In this document: positions 4,654 through 27,796 of the stretch, one piece after another | Layout of the letters: each line of letters starts with the position of its first letter | Numbering within the stretch: position 1 is the first letter of the stretch | Assembly: GCF_000379765.1 (NCBI RefSeq) | Contig: NZ_KB903432.1 | Location: 186,427 to 250,426, forward strand | Reading direction: 5' to 3' | DNA from: Flexithrix dorotheae DSM 6795 | Lineage (GTDB): Bacteria; Bacteroidota; Bacteroidia; Cytophagales; Flammeovirgaceae | Length of the DNA stretch: 64,000 nt | The notes under the pieces: model-generated | The model's input: the letters and a program-made list of their open reading frames with translations, nothing else | Databases searched by the model: none | What the model was told of the DNA's origin: nothing | Translations under genes and position numbers: made by a program

Positions 4654-5109
4654 TTATTTTAAAAAACCGAAAAGATTGAAAGAAATATCGAAGTGTGATC
4701 TTACAACTTTGGTATTTATTAATAGTAAAATAGCTAAAGGAATAAAAAATTCTACTGAAAATACAATAGGATTATAAATATTCAGAACCTTGAAAAGATA
4801 TCTGAATAGATCAATAAGGTTCAAAACAAACAAATAAGTGTAACTAATTGCTAATAGAAACCAGCCCCATTTTCTATTGGATAAAATCCCCAAGCAAGAA
4901 AAGACCTGGAATGAAGAGACAATGATTATCCAATAAATGTCAATCATTTCAGAAGAAAAATAATCGACTGGTAGGTAATTTAGCCCTATAAGTTCTGGTT
5001 GATTGAAATAGTAAAAATAAATACCATAAATAGTATTTAATAGGGCAATAAAAATTAAAATTACACAGACAATCCGAAGAATTGTTAACCAAGGAATTTT
5101 ATGTTCCAT
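4654..5109 (-). CDS. Hypothetical four-TM membrane protein
   Basis: 151 residues from an ATG. Four hydrophobic segments are seen near residues 8-30, 55-75, 80-103 and 115-138, typical of a small integral membrane protein. No motif known to me is present. It starts 17 bases after the thiH stop and ends 10 bases before the next gene, so it looks like an operon passenger in the position where many thiamine operons carry thiF. It has no resemblance to ThiF, which is a soluble nucleotide-binding enzyme. Confidence 0.7.
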   Translation of the reverse strand: MEHKIPWLTILRIVCVILIFIALLNTIYGIYFYYFNQPELIGLNYLPVDYFSSEMIDIYWIIIVSSFQVFSCLGILSNRKWGWFLLAISYTYLFVLNLIDLFRYLFKVLNIYNPIVFSVEFFIPLAILLLINTKVVRSHFDISFNLFGFLK

Positions 5110-5126
5110 TTTTTAGTTGTCAAACA

Positions 5127-6260
5127 TTAAATCGCCCGTTCAAATTTATCATAAGCCAAATCCCAGTCTTTCCAAACCACTTCATAGCCCTGATTTCGAA
5201 TCATTTGGGCAATTTCCTCCGGGCTTCTTTCATCGGAAATTTCAAATTGTTCCAGCGATTCCTGTTCCACAGAATATCCACCTGGATTTGTTTTAGAGCC
5301 AGCACTAATAGAAGTGATGCCCAGTTTTATCACATTATTTCTGAATTTTTCGGTTTCTCTGGTGGAAAGCGATAATTCTACTTCTTCATCAAAAATTCTA
5401 TAGGCACAAATTAACTGAACTAATTCCCGGTCATTCATTTCCACTTTTGGAGGTAAGCCTCCTGAGAAGGGACGCAACCTTGGAAAACTAATGGAATATT
5501 TGGTCTGCCAGTAATTTCTTTCCAGATAATCGAGATGTAAGGCGGTGAAAAAACAGTCGGTTCTCCAGTCTTCCAGTCCAATTAAAACACCTAATCCAAT
5601 TTTATGGATGCCTGCTCTTCCCAACCTGTCAGGTGTTTCAAGTCGATAATAAAAATTGGATTTCTTCCCTTTCGGATGGTGTTTTTTATAATCTTCCTGA
5701 TGGTAAGTTTCCTGATAAACCAATACGGTATTCAAACCAGAAGGAATTAAAGTTTCATAGTCCGGTTGGTCTAGTGGCTGCACTTCCATGGAGATGTGGG
5801 AGAAATGAGGCCTAATAAGTTCAATAGCATGTTTGAGATAATCTACACCAACAGTTTTATTTGCTTCACCAGTTACAAGCAGGATATGGTCATATCCCAT
5901 TTTTTTGATCACTTCAACTTCTCTAAGAATCTGTGTATCGGTCAGTGTCGTCCTTCTGATTTTATTATCCAGACTAAACCCACAATAAGTACAAATATTC
6001 TGGCACTCATTGGAAAGGTACATGGGGACATACATTTGGATAGTTTTTCCAAACCTTTTTTGAGTGAGCTGGTGGCTCAATCTGGCCATATCTTCCAGGT
6101 AAGGAGCTGCAGCCGGGGAAATTAAAGCTTTGAAATCTTCTAAATCCCTGTTGCCATTTTTATGCAAGGCAATTTCAACATCCACAGCGGTTTTGTCATA
6201 AATGCTGGCCTTTACATCGTCCCAGTTATGTTGATCAAAAATATCCCGAAAATCCTTCAT
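5127..6260 (-). CDS. thiH: 2-iminoacetate synthase ThiH (tyrosine lyase)
   Basis: 377 residues, the usual ThiH length. The radical-SAM cluster motif CxxxCxxC is present as C86, C90 and C93 (ECQNICTYC), followed by GFSLDNK. ThiH cleaves tyrosine with SAM to give 2-iminoacetate (dehydroglycine) and p-cresol, supplying the C2-N3 unit of the thiazole ring to ThiG. Later segments such as GLGVLIGLEDW and SFPRLRPFSGG are conserved in the family. It follows thiG after about 110 bases in the riboswitch-led operon. Using ThiH rather than the glycine oxidase ThiO fits an anaerobic-type thiazole route common in Bacteroidota. Confidence 0.96.
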   Translation of the reverse strand: MKDFRDIFDQHNWDDVKASIYDKTAVDVEIALHKNGNRDLEDFKALISPAAAPYLEDMARLSHQLTQKRFGKTIQMYVPMYLSNECQNICTYCGFSLDNKIRRTTLTDTQILREVEVIKKMGYDHILLVTGEANKTVGVDYLKHAIELIRPHFSHISMEVQPLDQPDYETLIPSGLNTVLVYQETYHQEDYKKHHPKGKKSNFYYRLETPDRLGRAGIHKIGLGVLIGLEDWRTDCFFTALHLDYLERNYWQTKYSISFPRLRPFSGGLPPKVEMNDRELVQLICAYRIFDEEVELSLSTRETEKFRNNVIKLGITSISAGSKTNPGGYSVEQESLEQFEISDERSPEEIAQMIRNQGYEVVWKDWDLAYDKFERAI

Positions 6261-21681: not shown

Positions 21682-23262
21682 CTAGCCAGCTTCCTTTTCC
21701 TCTACCTTAACATCAAATCCTGCTGTAAGAATTTCTCCATCTATTTTTACCTGAACCCAAATGCGATAATCCCCTGCTTTTGGGAATGCATAAGGAAAAG
21801 AAACCTTATTGCTCAGTCCTTTTTCATTCATCAGTTTCAGGATATCATCCCGCATGGTGGTCACCTGGTTCTGATCCAATAATCCCAGGGACCGCACATC
21901 ATAGTTGGTTGAATCAAGTGTAAGGCATAAAGAAACTTCATCTCCTACTTTTCCGGCTATAGCTTCCTGAGCAGCCATGGAAATGGTCCCAATTGGATGT
22001 AAATGGATAAAAACAGAAGCATCCTGCTTAAATACTACAGAATGCCCGAGCATTCCCAAATAAGGTTCTAAAACCACTGGCATTCCATTTTCCCTTTCAA
22101 AAGAAAATTTTAATGATTCGATCTGATCTACCTTAAATTTTTTATCAATTGAATTTTCCCACTTCACTTTTATTCCATTATCTAAAATCTGGACTTGCCC
22201 TTTTGGTTTTGAATATTCATACCAGGTATCATCAGCATCAATGGGAAGTTCATTTTCTTTCATTTCAGTTACCAGCCCTATTCCCGCATTTTGTGGTTCA
22301 CCCTGAATTTCGAATTCAGAAACCAACGTTTCACTTAAGCCACTTAAATGAACAATATCGGCAAAAGCGTGATAATTCCCAGCTGGTAAATCGGGAAGAA
22401 CTACATCATAAGTTACCGAATCAACTTTTAGCGGATGAAGATGGGCAAAGGACTTTCCCTCATCCTGATTAATCAAAAACAAATGCATGAGTTTTCCATG
22501 GTCAGGTACTAAATCACCCGCTTTTCTATCCCAATGTCCCTTATCATCAAGATGAATAGTTAATTTGTTTTTATGATCAATTGCTGTGATTTCTGTATTG
22601 ATTCCAACAGGCTGATACATGTACCGCTGATATTTATTTTCCTCACTATTCCACCAACCTGCCCCAAAATAAATAGTTCCGCCCAATAAAAGGGCAGCCA
22701 AACACCCAATTAAAATTGATTTTACCCTTTTTTTACTAGTGAGTTTTTCTCCCGGTTTTAGCATACCTTCTCCTGCACTGGCCCCAACAATTGTGGCACC
22801 ACCAATAAATAAAATGGCCCCTAAAATGATTAGCAAAATTTCCAGTTCGGATTCCATCTCTAACTGGGCAGAAGCCAATGCTGGAACGGGAATAACTGTA
22901 GATCCGGTTCCCTTATTTCCTTCTACAATAATTTTCACACTGGCTGAGCCATGACTCATCAGCCAAAGCTGGCCTGTAAATAATTCATCATCTCCAGGAA
23001 CTTTTTCGGTTGGATCTGCTGAAGGAGCCTTCTCATCTCCATATCGGTAATATACAGCCTGTAAAAATACTTCCCTGGCTTCTTTATCCATTACCCTGAC
23101 AGAAACCTGAGCTGTGCCTGGGACCACTTCAGGAGGTAATATACTGACTAAAACTGGATATTCTCCTGCACTTCCCTCAAATACGATGTTAGGACTTCCA
23201 ATATGAGCAGCATTTAAAAAGTAAATGGCCAATAATATTGGGTAAATTAATATTTTCCGCAT
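21682..23262 (-). CDS. Membrane-anchored protein with paired periplasmic HLHP domains, PmoB-like layout
   Basis: 526 residues. A signal peptide (about 1-19) could leave His20 as the mature N-terminus. Then come an N-terminal beta domain (about 25-130, with LWLMSHGSASVKI), two TM helices (about 141-160 and 181-201) and a large C-terminal region with two related His-rich modules: DHGKLMHLFL plus FAHLHP (H255, H260, H274, H276), and LGHSVVF plus FIHLHP (H407, H420, H422). The HLHP modules resemble YtkA/FixH-type or CopC-type copper-binding sandwiches. Proteins with the PDHGKLMHLFL and AHLHP blocks occur widely as hypotheticals. The gene follows the polytopic protein at 23298 after 35 bases, so they form one unit. 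The signal-beta-TM-TM-beta order is that of PmoB/AmoB; sequence homology is unproven. Confidence 0.8.
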   Translation of the reverse strand: MRKILIYPILLAIYFLNAAHIGSPNIVFEGSAGEYPVLVSILPPEVVPGTAQVSVRVMDKEAREVFLQAVYYRYGDEKAPSADPTEKVPGDDELFTGQLWLMSHGSASVKIIVEGNKGTGSTVIPVPALASAQLEMESELEILLIILGAILFIGGATIVGASAGEGMLKPGEKLTSKKRVKSILIGCLAALLLGGTIYFGAGWWNSEENKYQRYMYQPVGINTEITAIDHKNKLTIHLDDKGHWDRKAGDLVPDHGKLMHLFLINQDEGKSFAHLHPLKVDSVTYDVVLPDLPAGNYHAFADIVHLSGLSETLVSEFEIQGEPQNAGIGLVTEMKENELPIDADDTWYEYSKPKGQVQILDNGIKVKWENSIDKKFKVDQIESLKFSFERENGMPVVLEPYLGMLGHSVVFKQDASVFIHLHPIGTISMAAQEAIAGKVGDEVSLCLTLDSTNYDVRSLGLLDQNQVTTMRDDILKLMNEKGLSNKVSFPYAFPKAGDYRIWVQVKIDGEILTAGFDVKVEEKEAG

Positions 23263-23297
23263 GTTTTTCTGTGGAATTATTGAAAGAATTTTTTTGA

Positions 23298-24509
23298 TTA
23301 TCGCTGTACTTTGCTCATCCAGTTACCCCACCAGCAGCCGATACGGGAAAAAATTACGGATAAGGTAGCAGCCACAACCAATCCAATGATCAGGGTCAGG
23401 TTGCTATCCTCCAGCCAGGGGTAAAATGCATATCTGTGTTCCCAATCAGGATTCCAGTTGTATCCTAAAGCATCACCAGCAAAAAACCAATTAGCAGCGT
23501 AAGGAGTAAACATAAATTCGGCAAAAAACCATTGTGTGATTAAAAAACTGAAAAAGAAAACCAAACCAATTATTAAAGCTGCCCACCAGTCATTTACGGC
23601 TTGTTTATTTATTTTTTGAAAGGATAAGTCTATAAAAAAGCATGGAACGATTAATAAAAGGGGAAACTTGTAAGGTACATAATGGGTAATCTGGTTAATG
23701 ATTGGACCTAGTTTTGGTTCGGCAGGGAATAATGGTAAAACCCACAGCATGAACATGTTAATTCCCATATAAAATGCTGCTGCTGTGGTAGCTGGCCATT
23801 TTAATTTGGAAGCTTTAGAGGCTGCTACCAAAATCAGGGGAAAAATTACACAGCCAATTTTGTAATAAATAGAGGCATGTGCATAATTTGGGTTTAAATA
23901 TTCCGAAGACAAAATGAACAGGATAGCCAGCAACATGCCTACTGTGTAAATATACAAAATCCTGGAAAGCTGAATTTTACCTTCCATTTCAGGAGTGTCT
24001 TTTTTCGAATATTGTAGCCGGTTCTGGTAGGTTAACAATTGCATTACCCCACCAAGTTGAACCATTACCATTCCAAGGGCCAACACAGCATGAGGCGGGC
24101 TTAAAATTTTCACATCCAGTCCGTAGGCATTGTGCCACCAGTCATCAAAAGGGGCGGAAGTCATCATGGCCAAAGCTCCCCAAACCAAAAAGAGGGCACT
24201 TAGAGGAGATCGGAAACCCCAAAACCAGACAGAAGCAGCTCTTTCTTCTTTAGTGCCAAAAAATGTAGTTTTAATCATCAGATAACCTCCACCAAACCCT
24301 GCCAAAATACCTCCAATATACATGAGGATATGGGGCGGAGAAAAAAGTCCGTCACGGCCAATACTTATGTGCCAGGAAATATCCCAGATTAATCCAGTGA
24401 TAATACAGGTAGTGGCAATCACCGCTGAATAAATATACCAGGGCATATGATATTTCCCCAGTGAAACATTCTCTTGTTTATTTTCGGGTTGAGTTATACT
24501 GGCTTCCAT
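23298..24509 (-). CDS. Polytopic membrane protein with duplicated D-x3-H-x12/13-H motif
   Basis: 403 residues with about ten hydrophobic segments. Motif 1 lies between TM1 and TM2: D43, H47 and H60, ending in SPPH. Motif 2 lies between TM3 and TM4: D122, H126 and H140, again ending in SPPH. The pair implies an internal duplication of a two-helix unit. The spacing of motif 1 (+4, +13) equals the PmoC copper-site ligands known from Methylococcus (Asp156, His160, His173). The C-terminal part has an aromatic/acidic periplasmic loop (WNPDWEHRY near residue 355). I know no functional name for this family. It is cotranscribed with the HLHP protein, and the promoter is upstream of 24509. Confidence 0.8.
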   Translation of the reverse strand: MEASITQPENKQENVSLGKYHMPWYIYSAVIATTCIITGLIWDISWHISIGRDGLFSPPHILMYIGGILAGFGGGYLMIKTTFFGTKEERAASVWFWGFRSPLSALFLVWGALAMMTSAPFDDWWHNAYGLDVKILSPPHAVLALGMVMVQLGGVMQLLTYQNRLQYSKKDTPEMEGKIQLSRILYIYTVGMLLAILFILSSEYLNPNYAHASIYYKIGCVIFPLILVAASKASKLKWPATTAAAFYMGINMFMLWVLPLFPAEPKLGPIINQITHYVPYKFPLLLIVPCFFIDLSFQKINKQAVNDWWAALIIGLVFFFSFLITQWFFAEFMFTPYAANWFFAGDALGYNWNPDWEHRYAFYPWLEDSNLTLIIGLVVAATLSVIFSRIGCWWGNWMSKVQR

Positions 24510-26236: not shown

Positions 26237-26917
26237 ATGTTTAAAGCACTAAAATTCTCATTTGTCGCCCTTATTTCAATTTTTGTAATTGCCTGTAGTG
26301 GCAAAAAAAGTGGAGAAACCACTGAGGAAGCCCCTGCAGCAGCTGAAATGGTGGAAGAAAAGGATGCTTCTTCACTTGTAGATGGGACTTATGCATTCGA
26401 TACTGAAAATAGTAAGGTAAATTGGCATGCAACGAAAATTACCGGAGAACATAATGGTACTGTGGATTTATCAGAAGGTTCTTTCACTGTTTCTAACGGA
26501 AGTATCTCATCTGGTACAATCCAATTAGATTTAAATTCTATTTATGTAATCGATTTGGAGGGAAAAGAAGAGATGCAAACCAAATTAACCAATCACTTGA
26601 AGTCTGCGGATTTCTTTAATGTAGAATTAAGCCCGGTAGCTACTTTAGAAATTACTTCTGTTGAAAAAAGTGCCGAAGCAGATGCTACCCATACTTTAAA
26701 TGGTACGCTTACTATTAAGGAGATTAAAAAAGAAGTTGCTATTCCGGCAACTATTTCTCAAGAAGGTGATGCGATTAAAACCTCAGCAAAATTTAAATTA
26801 GACAGAACAAAATGGGATATGATGTTCCATTCAGGTTTCGAGCAGTGGGGTGATAAAACCATCAATGATGAGTTTGATGTAGAATTTGATTTAACTGCTT
26901 CAAAAACAGCGATGTAA
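26237..26917 (+). CDS. YceI-family lipoprotein
   Basis: 226 residues with a lipoprotein signal (VIACSGKK). After an acidic linker, DTENSKVNWHATKITGEHNG begins the YceI lipocalin-like domain; SADFFNVELSPVATLEITS, HTLNGTLTIKEIKKEVAIPA and LDRTKWDMMF are its conserved strands. YceI proteins bind polyisoprenoid or other hydrophobic molecules in the periplasm. Its paralogue follows 231 bases later; an intrinsic terminator between them shows separate transcription. A common -type promoter region lies upstream. Confidence 0.92.
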   Translation: MFKALKFSFVALISIFVIACSGKKSGETTEEAPAAAEMVEEKDASSLVDGTYAFDTENSKVNWHATKITGEHNGTVDLSEGSFTVSNGSISSGTIQLDLNSIYVIDLEGKEEMQTKLTNHLKSADFFNVELSPVATLEITSVEKSAEADATHTLNGTLTIKEIKKEVAIPATISQEGDAIKTSAKFKLDRTKWDMMFHSGFEQWGDKTINDEFDVEFDLTASKTAM

Positions 26918-27148: not shown

Positions 27149-27796
27149 ATGACCCAATCTAATTTTTTCAAATCCTCAATTGCCCTGATAATAACAAGTT
27201 TGTTGGTGGCATTTAACCAACCAGATATTCCTGCATCCACCACAGAAGCAATAGCCTTTGCAGATGGTACTTATGAATTTGCATCGGGAAGTAAAATAAA
27301 CTGGAAAGCGGCAAAAATCACCGGAAAACACAATGGTACTATTGATATAGCCTCAGGTGAATTTAAAATGGAAAATGGATTAGTTACTTCCGGAAATATT
27401 ACAATTAACCTGAAAACCATTTATGTAGAAGATTTAAAAGACAATCCTAAAAGTCAGAAAAAACTTACCGGTCATTTAAAATCTACTGATTTTTTTGGTG
27501 TTGAAATTAGTCCGACTGCTGAGTTTGTAATTACCAGCTCCACCAAGGGTGGGGAGAATGGCGCAACCCATACTTTAAATGGAACTTTAACGATCAAAAA
27601 GATCACCAAGGAAATTTCTATTCCCGTAAAAATTTCTGAGGAGGGAAGTAATATCAAAACTTCTGCTGAATTCAGGCTGGACCGAACCAACTGGGATATG
27701 ATGTTTCACTCTGGTTTGGAAAAATGGGGAGATAAGGCCATTGACGATGAGTTCGATGTTTCTTTCGATTTAGTTTCCAAAAAATCAGCATCTTAA
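27149..27796 (+). CDS. YceI-family secreted protein, tandem paralogue
   Basis: 215 residues with a Sec-type signal and no lipobox cysteine, unlike its upstream paralogue. The YceI domain starts SGSKINWKAAKITGKHNG and keeps the STDFFGVEISPTAEFVITS and LDRTNWDMMFHSGLEKWGDK blocks. The two proteins are alike across the whole domain, so a local gene duplication with a change of anchoring is likely. Same presumed role, hydrophobic-ligand binding in the periplasm. Own terminator follows. Confidence 0.92.
   Translation: MTQSNFFKSSIALIITSLLVAFNQPDIPASTTEAIAFADGTYEFASGSKINWKAAKITGKHNGTIDIASGEFKMENGLVTSGNITINLKTIYVEDLKDNPKSQKKLTGHLKSTDFFGVEISPTAEFVITSSTKGGENGATHTLNGTLTIKKITKEISIPVKISEEGSNIKTSAEFRLDRTNWDMMFHSGLEKWGDKAIDDEFDVSFDLVSKKSAS

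Follow-up and report, generated by a model that had tools for sequence, protein, structure and literature searches.

A PmoC-like membrane protein and its exported partner in Flexithrix dorotheae, possibly a divergent copper membrane monooxygenase

Introduction

Do two adjacent membrane-protein genes of Flexithrix dorotheae DSM 6795, a member of the Bacteroidota, encode a relative of the copper membrane monooxygenases (CuMMOs), the enzymes that start aerobic methane and ammonia oxidation? The genes lie in a stretch of 64,000 nucleotides (contig NZ_KB903432.1, positions 186,427 to 250,426 of the forward strand), which we call the window and whose own numbering is used throughout. An earlier note, made from the letters of this DNA, had described a polytopic protein with two Asp/His/His motifs as a possible distant relative of PmoC, had likened its partner to PmoB and had stated that PmoA is missing. 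Here we follow up these proposals by profile searches, comparison of predicted structures and a survey of the gene pair in other genomes.

Results

The gene pair

Both open reading frames of the earlier note are real, and we add that they lie on the minus strand with the polytopic gene first. This gene, P2 (23298–24509), encodes 403 amino acids that form ten helices in the AF2 model (mean predicted local distance difference test score, pLDDT, 91.8). After a gap of 35 bases it is followed in the order of transcription by P1 (21682–23262), which encodes an exported, membrane-anchored protein of 526 amino acids (pLDDT 83.0). All features of the pair given below are on the same strand. The ratio of nonsynonymous to synonymous substitution (dN/dS), taken from a single genome pair, the window and a locus of the same genus (L015), is ∼0.06 for P2 (0.092/1.60) as well as P1 (0.073/1.14); with dS above 1 the estimate is rough. 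Ratios near 0.06 place both genes under strong purifying selection. As single sequences, neither P2 nor P1 gave a match above the curated cut-offs in Pfam or NCBIfam or a meaningful match to PDB sequences, and PADLOC returned no result for the locus.

The N-terminal part of P2 and subunit C

The two motifs of P2 are exactly D43-x3-H47-x12-H60 and D122-x3-H126-x13-H140, each closed by SPPH. The first, D43-ISW-H47-ISIGRDGLFSPP-H60 (24330–24383), is of the CuC type and aligns with D156, H160 and H173 of PmoC as well as with R165 and D166; the second, D122-DWW-H126-NAYGLDVKILSPP-H140 (24090–24146), is of the CuD type and aligns with N227, H231 and H245. In particulate methane monooxygenase (pMMO) the CuC ligands are described as Asp156, His160 and His173 and those of CuD as Asn227, His231 and His245, the latter with a spacing of x3/x13 (PMC12576850). 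Thus, the first motif has the PmoC spacing, as the earlier note had observed, and so does the second, which had escaped it. That the motifs lie between helix pairs agrees with the helix ends of the AF2 model, in which D43 and H47 close helix 24–49 and H60 starts helix 58–84, while D122 and H126 close helix 103–129 and H140 starts helix 138–167. The predicted order of the helices places both ligand sets on one side of the membrane, and basic residues in the opposite loops suggest that this side would be the periplasm.

We assessed conservation in two alignments of P2 relatives, one of 86 rows, nearly all from Bacteroidota, and a wider one of 38 proteins with identities down to 28%. D43, H47, H60, D122, H126 and H140 are unchanged in 86/86 and 38/38 rows, the window protein counted, so the motifs are not a product of chance. 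W46, R52, D53 and P138 are likewise invariant in both alignments, and in the 38 proteins W124 and D132 are constant in addition to these ten residues. R52 and D53 stand at Arg165 and Asp166 of PmoC, and the equivalents of PmoC W159, R165, D166 and P243 are all invariant in P2. The position of PmoC Glu237 is occupied by Asp throughout.

The PmoC-like part as a whole comprises residues 20–165 (24015–24452), four helices in the model. Its profile aligned by hhalign to that of 13 PmoC/AmoC sequences with P 1.8e-5 and a probability of 78, all six ligands being in register. With the whole of P2 the P-values were 2.5e-4 and 1.2e-4. The P2/PmoC score was 38.2 against a maximum of 26.1 in 100 column shuffles, and 38.8 against a maximum of 22.8 for 91 other protein families, eight of them polytopic. 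When the 38-row profile was run against the PDB (177,635 distinct sequences), the sole match at E ≤ 10 was the AmoC chain 9cl6_C (E 0.0013), and this alignment runs through D-x2-WH-x4-RD-x6-H. Searching the 38 members singly gave a similar picture. Subunit C was the most frequent match in NCBIfam (TIGR03078, 5/38, also with the best E-value, 7.7e-4) and in Pfam (PF04896, 4/38, best 9e-4), in both cases below the cut-off. We also ran PF04896 over 24 whole genomes carrying P2; it gave matches at E ≤ 1 in 11 of them, each time with the best one on P2. In the F. dorotheae genome itself the match has E 0.28 and 12.5 bits, the cut-off being 26.7, with no other match up to E 10. As the control genomes of E. 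coli and Haloferax also contain one sub-threshold match each, such a match by itself says little, but its position does.

Several of these searches also yielded results that weigh against the assignment to subunit C. The 86-row profile found no match in the PDB, so the match to AmoC needed the wider 38-row set. The hhalign probability for the whole of P2 was only 43 and 55 in the two comparisons. Two other Pfam families surpassed AmoC on single E-value, with two of the 38 members each, and among the 86 rows PF04896 matched a single one (E 0.017) while DUF6338 matched eight (best 2.1e-4). PF04896 gave no match at E ≤ 1 in 13 of the 24 genomes and passed its cut-off in 0/24, and its match in the F. 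dorotheae genome overruns the start codon of P2 and contains stop codons. Finally, the position of the CuD ligand Asn227 is an Asp in 86/86 and 38/38 relatives, with both His retained. The D-site (CuD) is reported to be conserved only within bacterial lineages (PMC9038741).

Other families were considered for P2 and set aside. The transporter family AzlD matched residues 244–320 below the cut-off (E 0.0096) in 2/86 and 1/38 members only, and DUF6338 and other scattered membrane families were each confined to a few members. Judged from sequence, P2 belongs by homology with subunit C of the CuMMO class and is very probably a remote homologue of PmoC/AmoC, as the earlier note had proposed.

The C-terminal half of P2 and subunit A

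Residues 169–403 of P2 (23301–24005) form six helices. We compared the P2 model with 990 PDB chains ranked by Foldseek, using VIA-align. The 12 best entries were all pMMO or ammonia monooxygenase (AMO), with root-mean-square deviations of 3.8–4.5 over 192–204 residues, and the next family, CcmF, followed at Z 8.1. The Z-scores of the 12 entries are 11.2–12.4, and since values under ∼13 between helical bundles may reflect merely a common arrangement, the match is a strong hint rather than proof. The aligned region starts at P2 residue 169 in 11 of the 12 and at residue 11 in one, and ends at 402 or 403. A subunit A sequence is present in every one of these entries; the matched chain itself was confirmed as subunit A for six, and for the other six the entry, chain letter and length indicate the same. 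Identity between P2 and PmoA in the structural alignment is 11–14%. The list was limited to Foldseek-ranked chains, so that the absence of PmoC from it speaks neither for nor against the assignment of the N-terminal part. Foldseek alone gave no match under 0.001, and neither program returned a confident fold match of P2 to an unrelated transporter family, an outcome that the earlier note had named as fatal to its proposal.

The sequence comparisons do not bear out the structural match. An hhalign comparison of the C-terminal half with PmoA was not significant (24.2, against values up to 22.9 in 60 shuffles and up to 25.2 among 91 decoys); it covers 163 columns in a register about as in the structural match. 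A search of PDB sequences with the profile of this half did not find PmoA, the Pfam PmoA model (PF02461) stayed below its cut-off in all 24 genomes, and what it matched weakly in the F. dorotheae genome falls outside P2.

What strengthens the PmoA reading is that the rest of P2 is tied by sequence to PmoC, which pairs with PmoA and is encoded next to it in the operon. Residues 169–403 are therefore probably a PmoA-like half, as far as the model can tell, and P2 is apparently a PmoC-PmoA fusion that combines two of the usual three subunits in one protein. The claim that PmoA is absent is then probably wrong; the subunit appears to be hidden in P2.

P1 and subunit B

In the AF2 model, P1 consists of a signal helix (2–16), strands between 26 and 128, two helices (138–167 and 176–212) and a mostly beta region up to residue 521. 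The signal peptide, beta domain, two transmembrane helices and second beta region with two HLHP modules that the earlier note had read from the sequence are thus all seen. In the mature protein, an N-terminal beta sandwich (residues 20–130, 22873–23205) is followed by a two-helix membrane anchor (residues 138–212, 22627–22851), HLHP module 1 (22288–22617) and HLHP module 2 with the C-terminal beta domain (21700–22200).

Conservation was counted in two alignments of 78 rows (A3) and 32 rows (A8). His20 (codon 23203–23205), which the earlier note had suggested as a possible mature N-terminus, is His in 78/78 and 32/32 and without exception follows Ala, Ser or Gly. The mature protein therefore likely starts with a His, cleavage at this site being predicted. 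The His residues of module 1 (H255, H260, H274 and H276) are kept in 78/78 and in 31 or 32 of 32 rows, and those of module 2 (H407, H420 and H422) in 78/78 and 31/32. The two modules are related to each other (P 1.3e-5), and a weak YtkA match in the HLHP modules was seen in 9/78 members. Among the structural neighbours of residues 20–130 is the copper protein CrdA (Z 10.0), level with carbohydrate-binding and other Ig-like domains; CrdA also matched residues 355–520 (Z 10.8). Foldseek alone gave merely generic Ig/FNIII chains with low TM-scores, and the P1 profile gave only chance matches in the PDB sequences (E 0.34 and above).

The CuB site of PmoB consists of the N-terminal His33 together with His137 and His139. 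No His-x-His of this kind was found among the conserved columns of P1 residues 21–135, which argues against equivalence with PmoB. The same holds for the absence of PmoB among the structural matches listed for P1, for the lack of a significant match to PmoB in sequence (the best P among 30 comparisons of pieces being 0.002), and for the Pfam PmoB model, whose sole match in the F. dorotheae genome is weak and lies outside P1. On the other side stand the gene order, the N-terminal His and the domain order, in which the comparison made in the earlier note stood up; subunit B of the class has two cupredoxin-like domains linked by two transmembrane helices, and the P1 model shows its elements in this order. 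The CuB site is reported as not conserved in Verrucomicrobia (PMC6215863). On balance the evidence leans towards P1 being the PmoB equivalent.

In the most divergent P2-P1 pair (L238), P1 lacks five of the seven conserved His of the HLHP region and retains His20; upstream of this pair lies a gene of the di-haem cytochrome c peroxidase/MauG type (9718–11037 of L238). Separate proteins that match the P1 profile in its HLHP region are encoded at L242 6635–7792 and L243 7250–8254.

Distribution of the gene pair

P2 was found in 11/97 genomes related to the host and in 5/395 genomes sampled over the host phylum, a set that overlaps the 97 relatives; the F. dorotheae genome is counted in both. A full-length P1 profile match occurred in the same five of the 395 genomes, and three more matches cover the C-terminal part only. 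In a named genome collection, 413 stretches encode P2 relatives, and the analysis covers the best 80. These are mostly from Bacteroidota such as Dyadobacter, Larkinella, Runella, Belliella and Mucilaginibacter, with Dyadobacter koreensis DSM 19938 and Runella zeae DSM 19591 among the carriers. One of the 80, L094, is assigned to Thermoanaerobaculum, a genus of the Acidobacteriota. In 297 genomes sampled from the phylum of L094, called the Acidobacteriota set on this basis, P2 was found in 16, some as fragments only.

P1 adjoins P2 on the same strand in 78 of the 80 named loci (77 by comparison of open reading frames, L094 by tblastn). It comes after a P2 copy in 77 of these and before P2 in L073. 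An adjacent P1 is lacking in L032 and also in L049, whose contig stops just past the second P2. Among the 11 loci of host relatives P1 is missing only in L018. Of the Acidobacteriota loci, all 13 that contain most of P2 have P1 behind it, counting L234 with a broken P2 and L232 with a broken P1; three fragment loci were excluded.

The earlier note had suggested looking among the neighbours for a third subunit. No such gene emerged: among the 30 largest groups listed, 32 of 91 loci was the most that any family besides P1 reached, and the repeated ones appear to reflect synteny within families. Inspection of 11 loci by eye showed no further recurring gene except between near relatives. In L227, from the Acidobacteriota set, an ammonium transporter gene (4946–6223, PF00909, E 4e-96) lies directly downstream of P1; it was not seen beside P2-P1 in the other ten loci inspected.

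Second copies of P2, in tandem or flanking, occur in L023 (8061–10773), L049 (8001–10509) and L051 (5094–9206) and are reminiscent of the extra pmoC copies in methanotrophs. P2 is broken into two open reading frames in L024 (9288–10534) and L234 (8399–9616), and P1 is broken in L232 (9294–10748), with intact copies in related genomes. No P2 relatives were found in the viral contigs or plasmids searched. For pmoC-like genes, 117 relatives were found in viral contigs and 80 of them kept (L110–L189), some of which are 82% identical to M. capsulatus PmoC.

Elsewhere in the window, two adjacent genes on the plus strand (26237–26917 and 27149–27796) encode similar, exported-looking proteins, an apparent tandem duplication.

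Discussion

How does the P2-P1 pair compare with the described CuMMOs? P2 has the two copper motifs of PmoC/AmoC (PF04896, TIGR03078) without any change in spacing, as well as counterparts of W159, R165, D166 and P243, and its gene likewise stands before that of subunit B. The protein differs in an identity of only 24% over 102 aligned columns, in lacking the first part of PmoC and in being fused to the PmoA-like half. This half resembles PmoA/AmoA (PF02461) in its predicted fold and in its length of about 200 residues, but it is joined behind subunit C, has no family-model match and shows six helices in the model, whereas PmoA is described with seven (PMC12576850). P1 has in common with PmoB/AmoB (PF04744) the sequence of signal peptide, beta domain, two helices and beta domain, the N-terminal His and the gene order, but it is longer, carries an extra C-terminal HLHP domain beyond the PmoB order and has no conserved His-x-His. 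Its place corresponds to that of pmoB in xmoCAB, a three-gene operon (PMC6215863), so that the order C(A)-B is kept. Archaeal AMO also has a shortened subunit C (PMC9038741, PMC10030591), but its subunits are separate and its AmoB lacks the C-terminal soluble part. The HLHP modules of P1, through the weak YtkA match and the structural match to CrdA, recall the periplasmic YtkA-like and CrdA proteins. These are not known to be coupled to a PmoC-like protein.

The CuC ligands that mark the class are thus present as the aligned and invariant D43, H47 and H60. Because no P2 passes the curated cut-off for subunit C in the 24 genomes, because P1 has no CuB His-x-His despite its invariant, predicted N-terminal His, and because there are two genes instead of three separate C, A and B genes, we do not place P2-P1 in the described CuMMO families. 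Among the open-access literature matches listed (subscription papers and preprints being outside this scope), none describes the module or a PmoC-PmoA fusion.

The best reading of the data is a deep branch of copper membrane monooxygenases with fused C and A subunits and an unusual B subunit. P2 and P1 may well form a complete, very divergent complex of the CuMMO type, and oxygenase activity is of the same, somewhat favourable likelihood. In such a complex, the two Asp/His/His sets at the ends of adjacent helix hairpins of the PmoC core would hold copper on the periplasmic side for the activation of O2, and the PmoA-like half would build the membrane scaffold and the substrate cavity. P1 would be the subunit in the PmoB position, exported and held by its two-helix anchor with periplasmic beta domains starting with a His, while its two His-rich HLHP modules would likely bind or deliver copper. 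Quinol would probably supply the electrons, and the CuC/CuD region would oxidise a small substrate, either hydrophobic or an amine. A further-reaching version, to which we give about even chances, is a widespread minimal copper monooxygenase of two polypeptides, branching outside all described CuMMOs, with subunits C and A in one chain and copper at two Asp-His-His sites, which would act in cultivable, heterotrophic members of the Bacteroidota and Acidobacteriota on a substrate new to the class. A model of pyrroloquinoline quinone (PQQ) methanol/ethanol dehydrogenase scored above its cut-off in 0/12 genomes of the host phylum and in 5/12 of the Acidobacteriota set; weaker matches of the broad family were seen in 22/24. 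Growth on methane therefore looks unlikely in the host phylum, and the carriers, common inhabitants of soil and water, are not known to feed on methane.

The main rival to the monooxygenase reading is copper transport: P2-P1 could be a complex for copper acquisition, storage or transport that descends from the copper monooxygenases or has a common ancestor with them and does not oxygenate, the HLHP modules of P1 capturing periplasmic copper and passing it to the Asp/His/His sites of P2. The many conserved His in P1 and the structural resemblance of its domains to the copper resistance protein CrdA would fit, and so would the lack of a matching oxidation pathway in the host phylum by the one model tried, that of the PQQ dehydrogenase. 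HLHP-region relatives of P1 also occur without P2, with 14 records on plasmids. Two of the five plasmid cases inspected have copper or heavy-metal genes close by: in Gloeocapsa the relative adjoins genes for a heavy-metal P-type ATPase, a heavy-metal-associated protein and a cupredoxin, and in Alkalihalophilus it is near the gene of a four-helix copper-binding protein. The separate HLHP protein of L242 also bears a heavy-metal-binding domain (PF19335). However, the other three plasmid cases are not clearly near metal genes, and the recurring, partly annotated neighbours of P2-P1 gave no sign of a copper-resistance cluster. A transporter would have no obvious need of a PmoA-like half. Moreover, Arg165, Asp156 and His173, which are described as holding a water in the CuD region of pMMO (PMC12576850), have invariant equivalents in P2, and the remaining CuC/CuD array is also invariant except for Asn227. 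Overall, we regard a transport role as rather unlikely.

The replacement of Asn227 bears on the identity of the metal as well, since the invariant change to Asp turns both P2 sites into 2-His-1-carboxylate sites. Together with the zinc described in the PmoC CuC site of the first crystal structures (PMC12576850), it would be compatible with an enzyme of the monooxygenase or oxidase kind using iron, zinc or manganese at its two Asp-His-His sites. Common descent with a copper family argues for copper, as does the setting of the P1 modules, which is linked to metals and in part to copper; another metal appears improbable. Least probable, and in our view very much so, is a chance resemblance in which P2, a ten-helix protein of other descent, would have come by its two D-x3-H hairpin motifs through convergence. 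P2 falls below the cut-off of every curated model, the 86-row PDB search came back empty and Foldseek alone gave nothing under 0.001, as such an explanation would have it. Yet the 38-row PDB search and the NCBIfam scan returned subunit C first, shuffles and decoys score far lower than the P2/PmoC alignment, and PmoA, which neighbours PmoC, came up independently for the other half of P2.

Where the CuMMO active site lies and what it consists of has been a matter of dispute for decades (PMC12576850). P2-P1, on the preferred reading as a divergent copper membrane monooxygenase, keeps the CuC and CuD positions and the second-shell arginine, has no CuB His pair and has Asp in place of the CuD Asn. 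Such a remote branch would amount to an experiment of nature, in which the PmoC sites stand out as the essential centre. Carriers in Dyadobacter, Runella, Larkinella and Mucilaginibacter include deposited strains that probably grow independently of the enzyme and in which genetics and purification could be attempted. If the reading is true, a wider range of bacteria would be able to perform oxidation of the CuMMO type.

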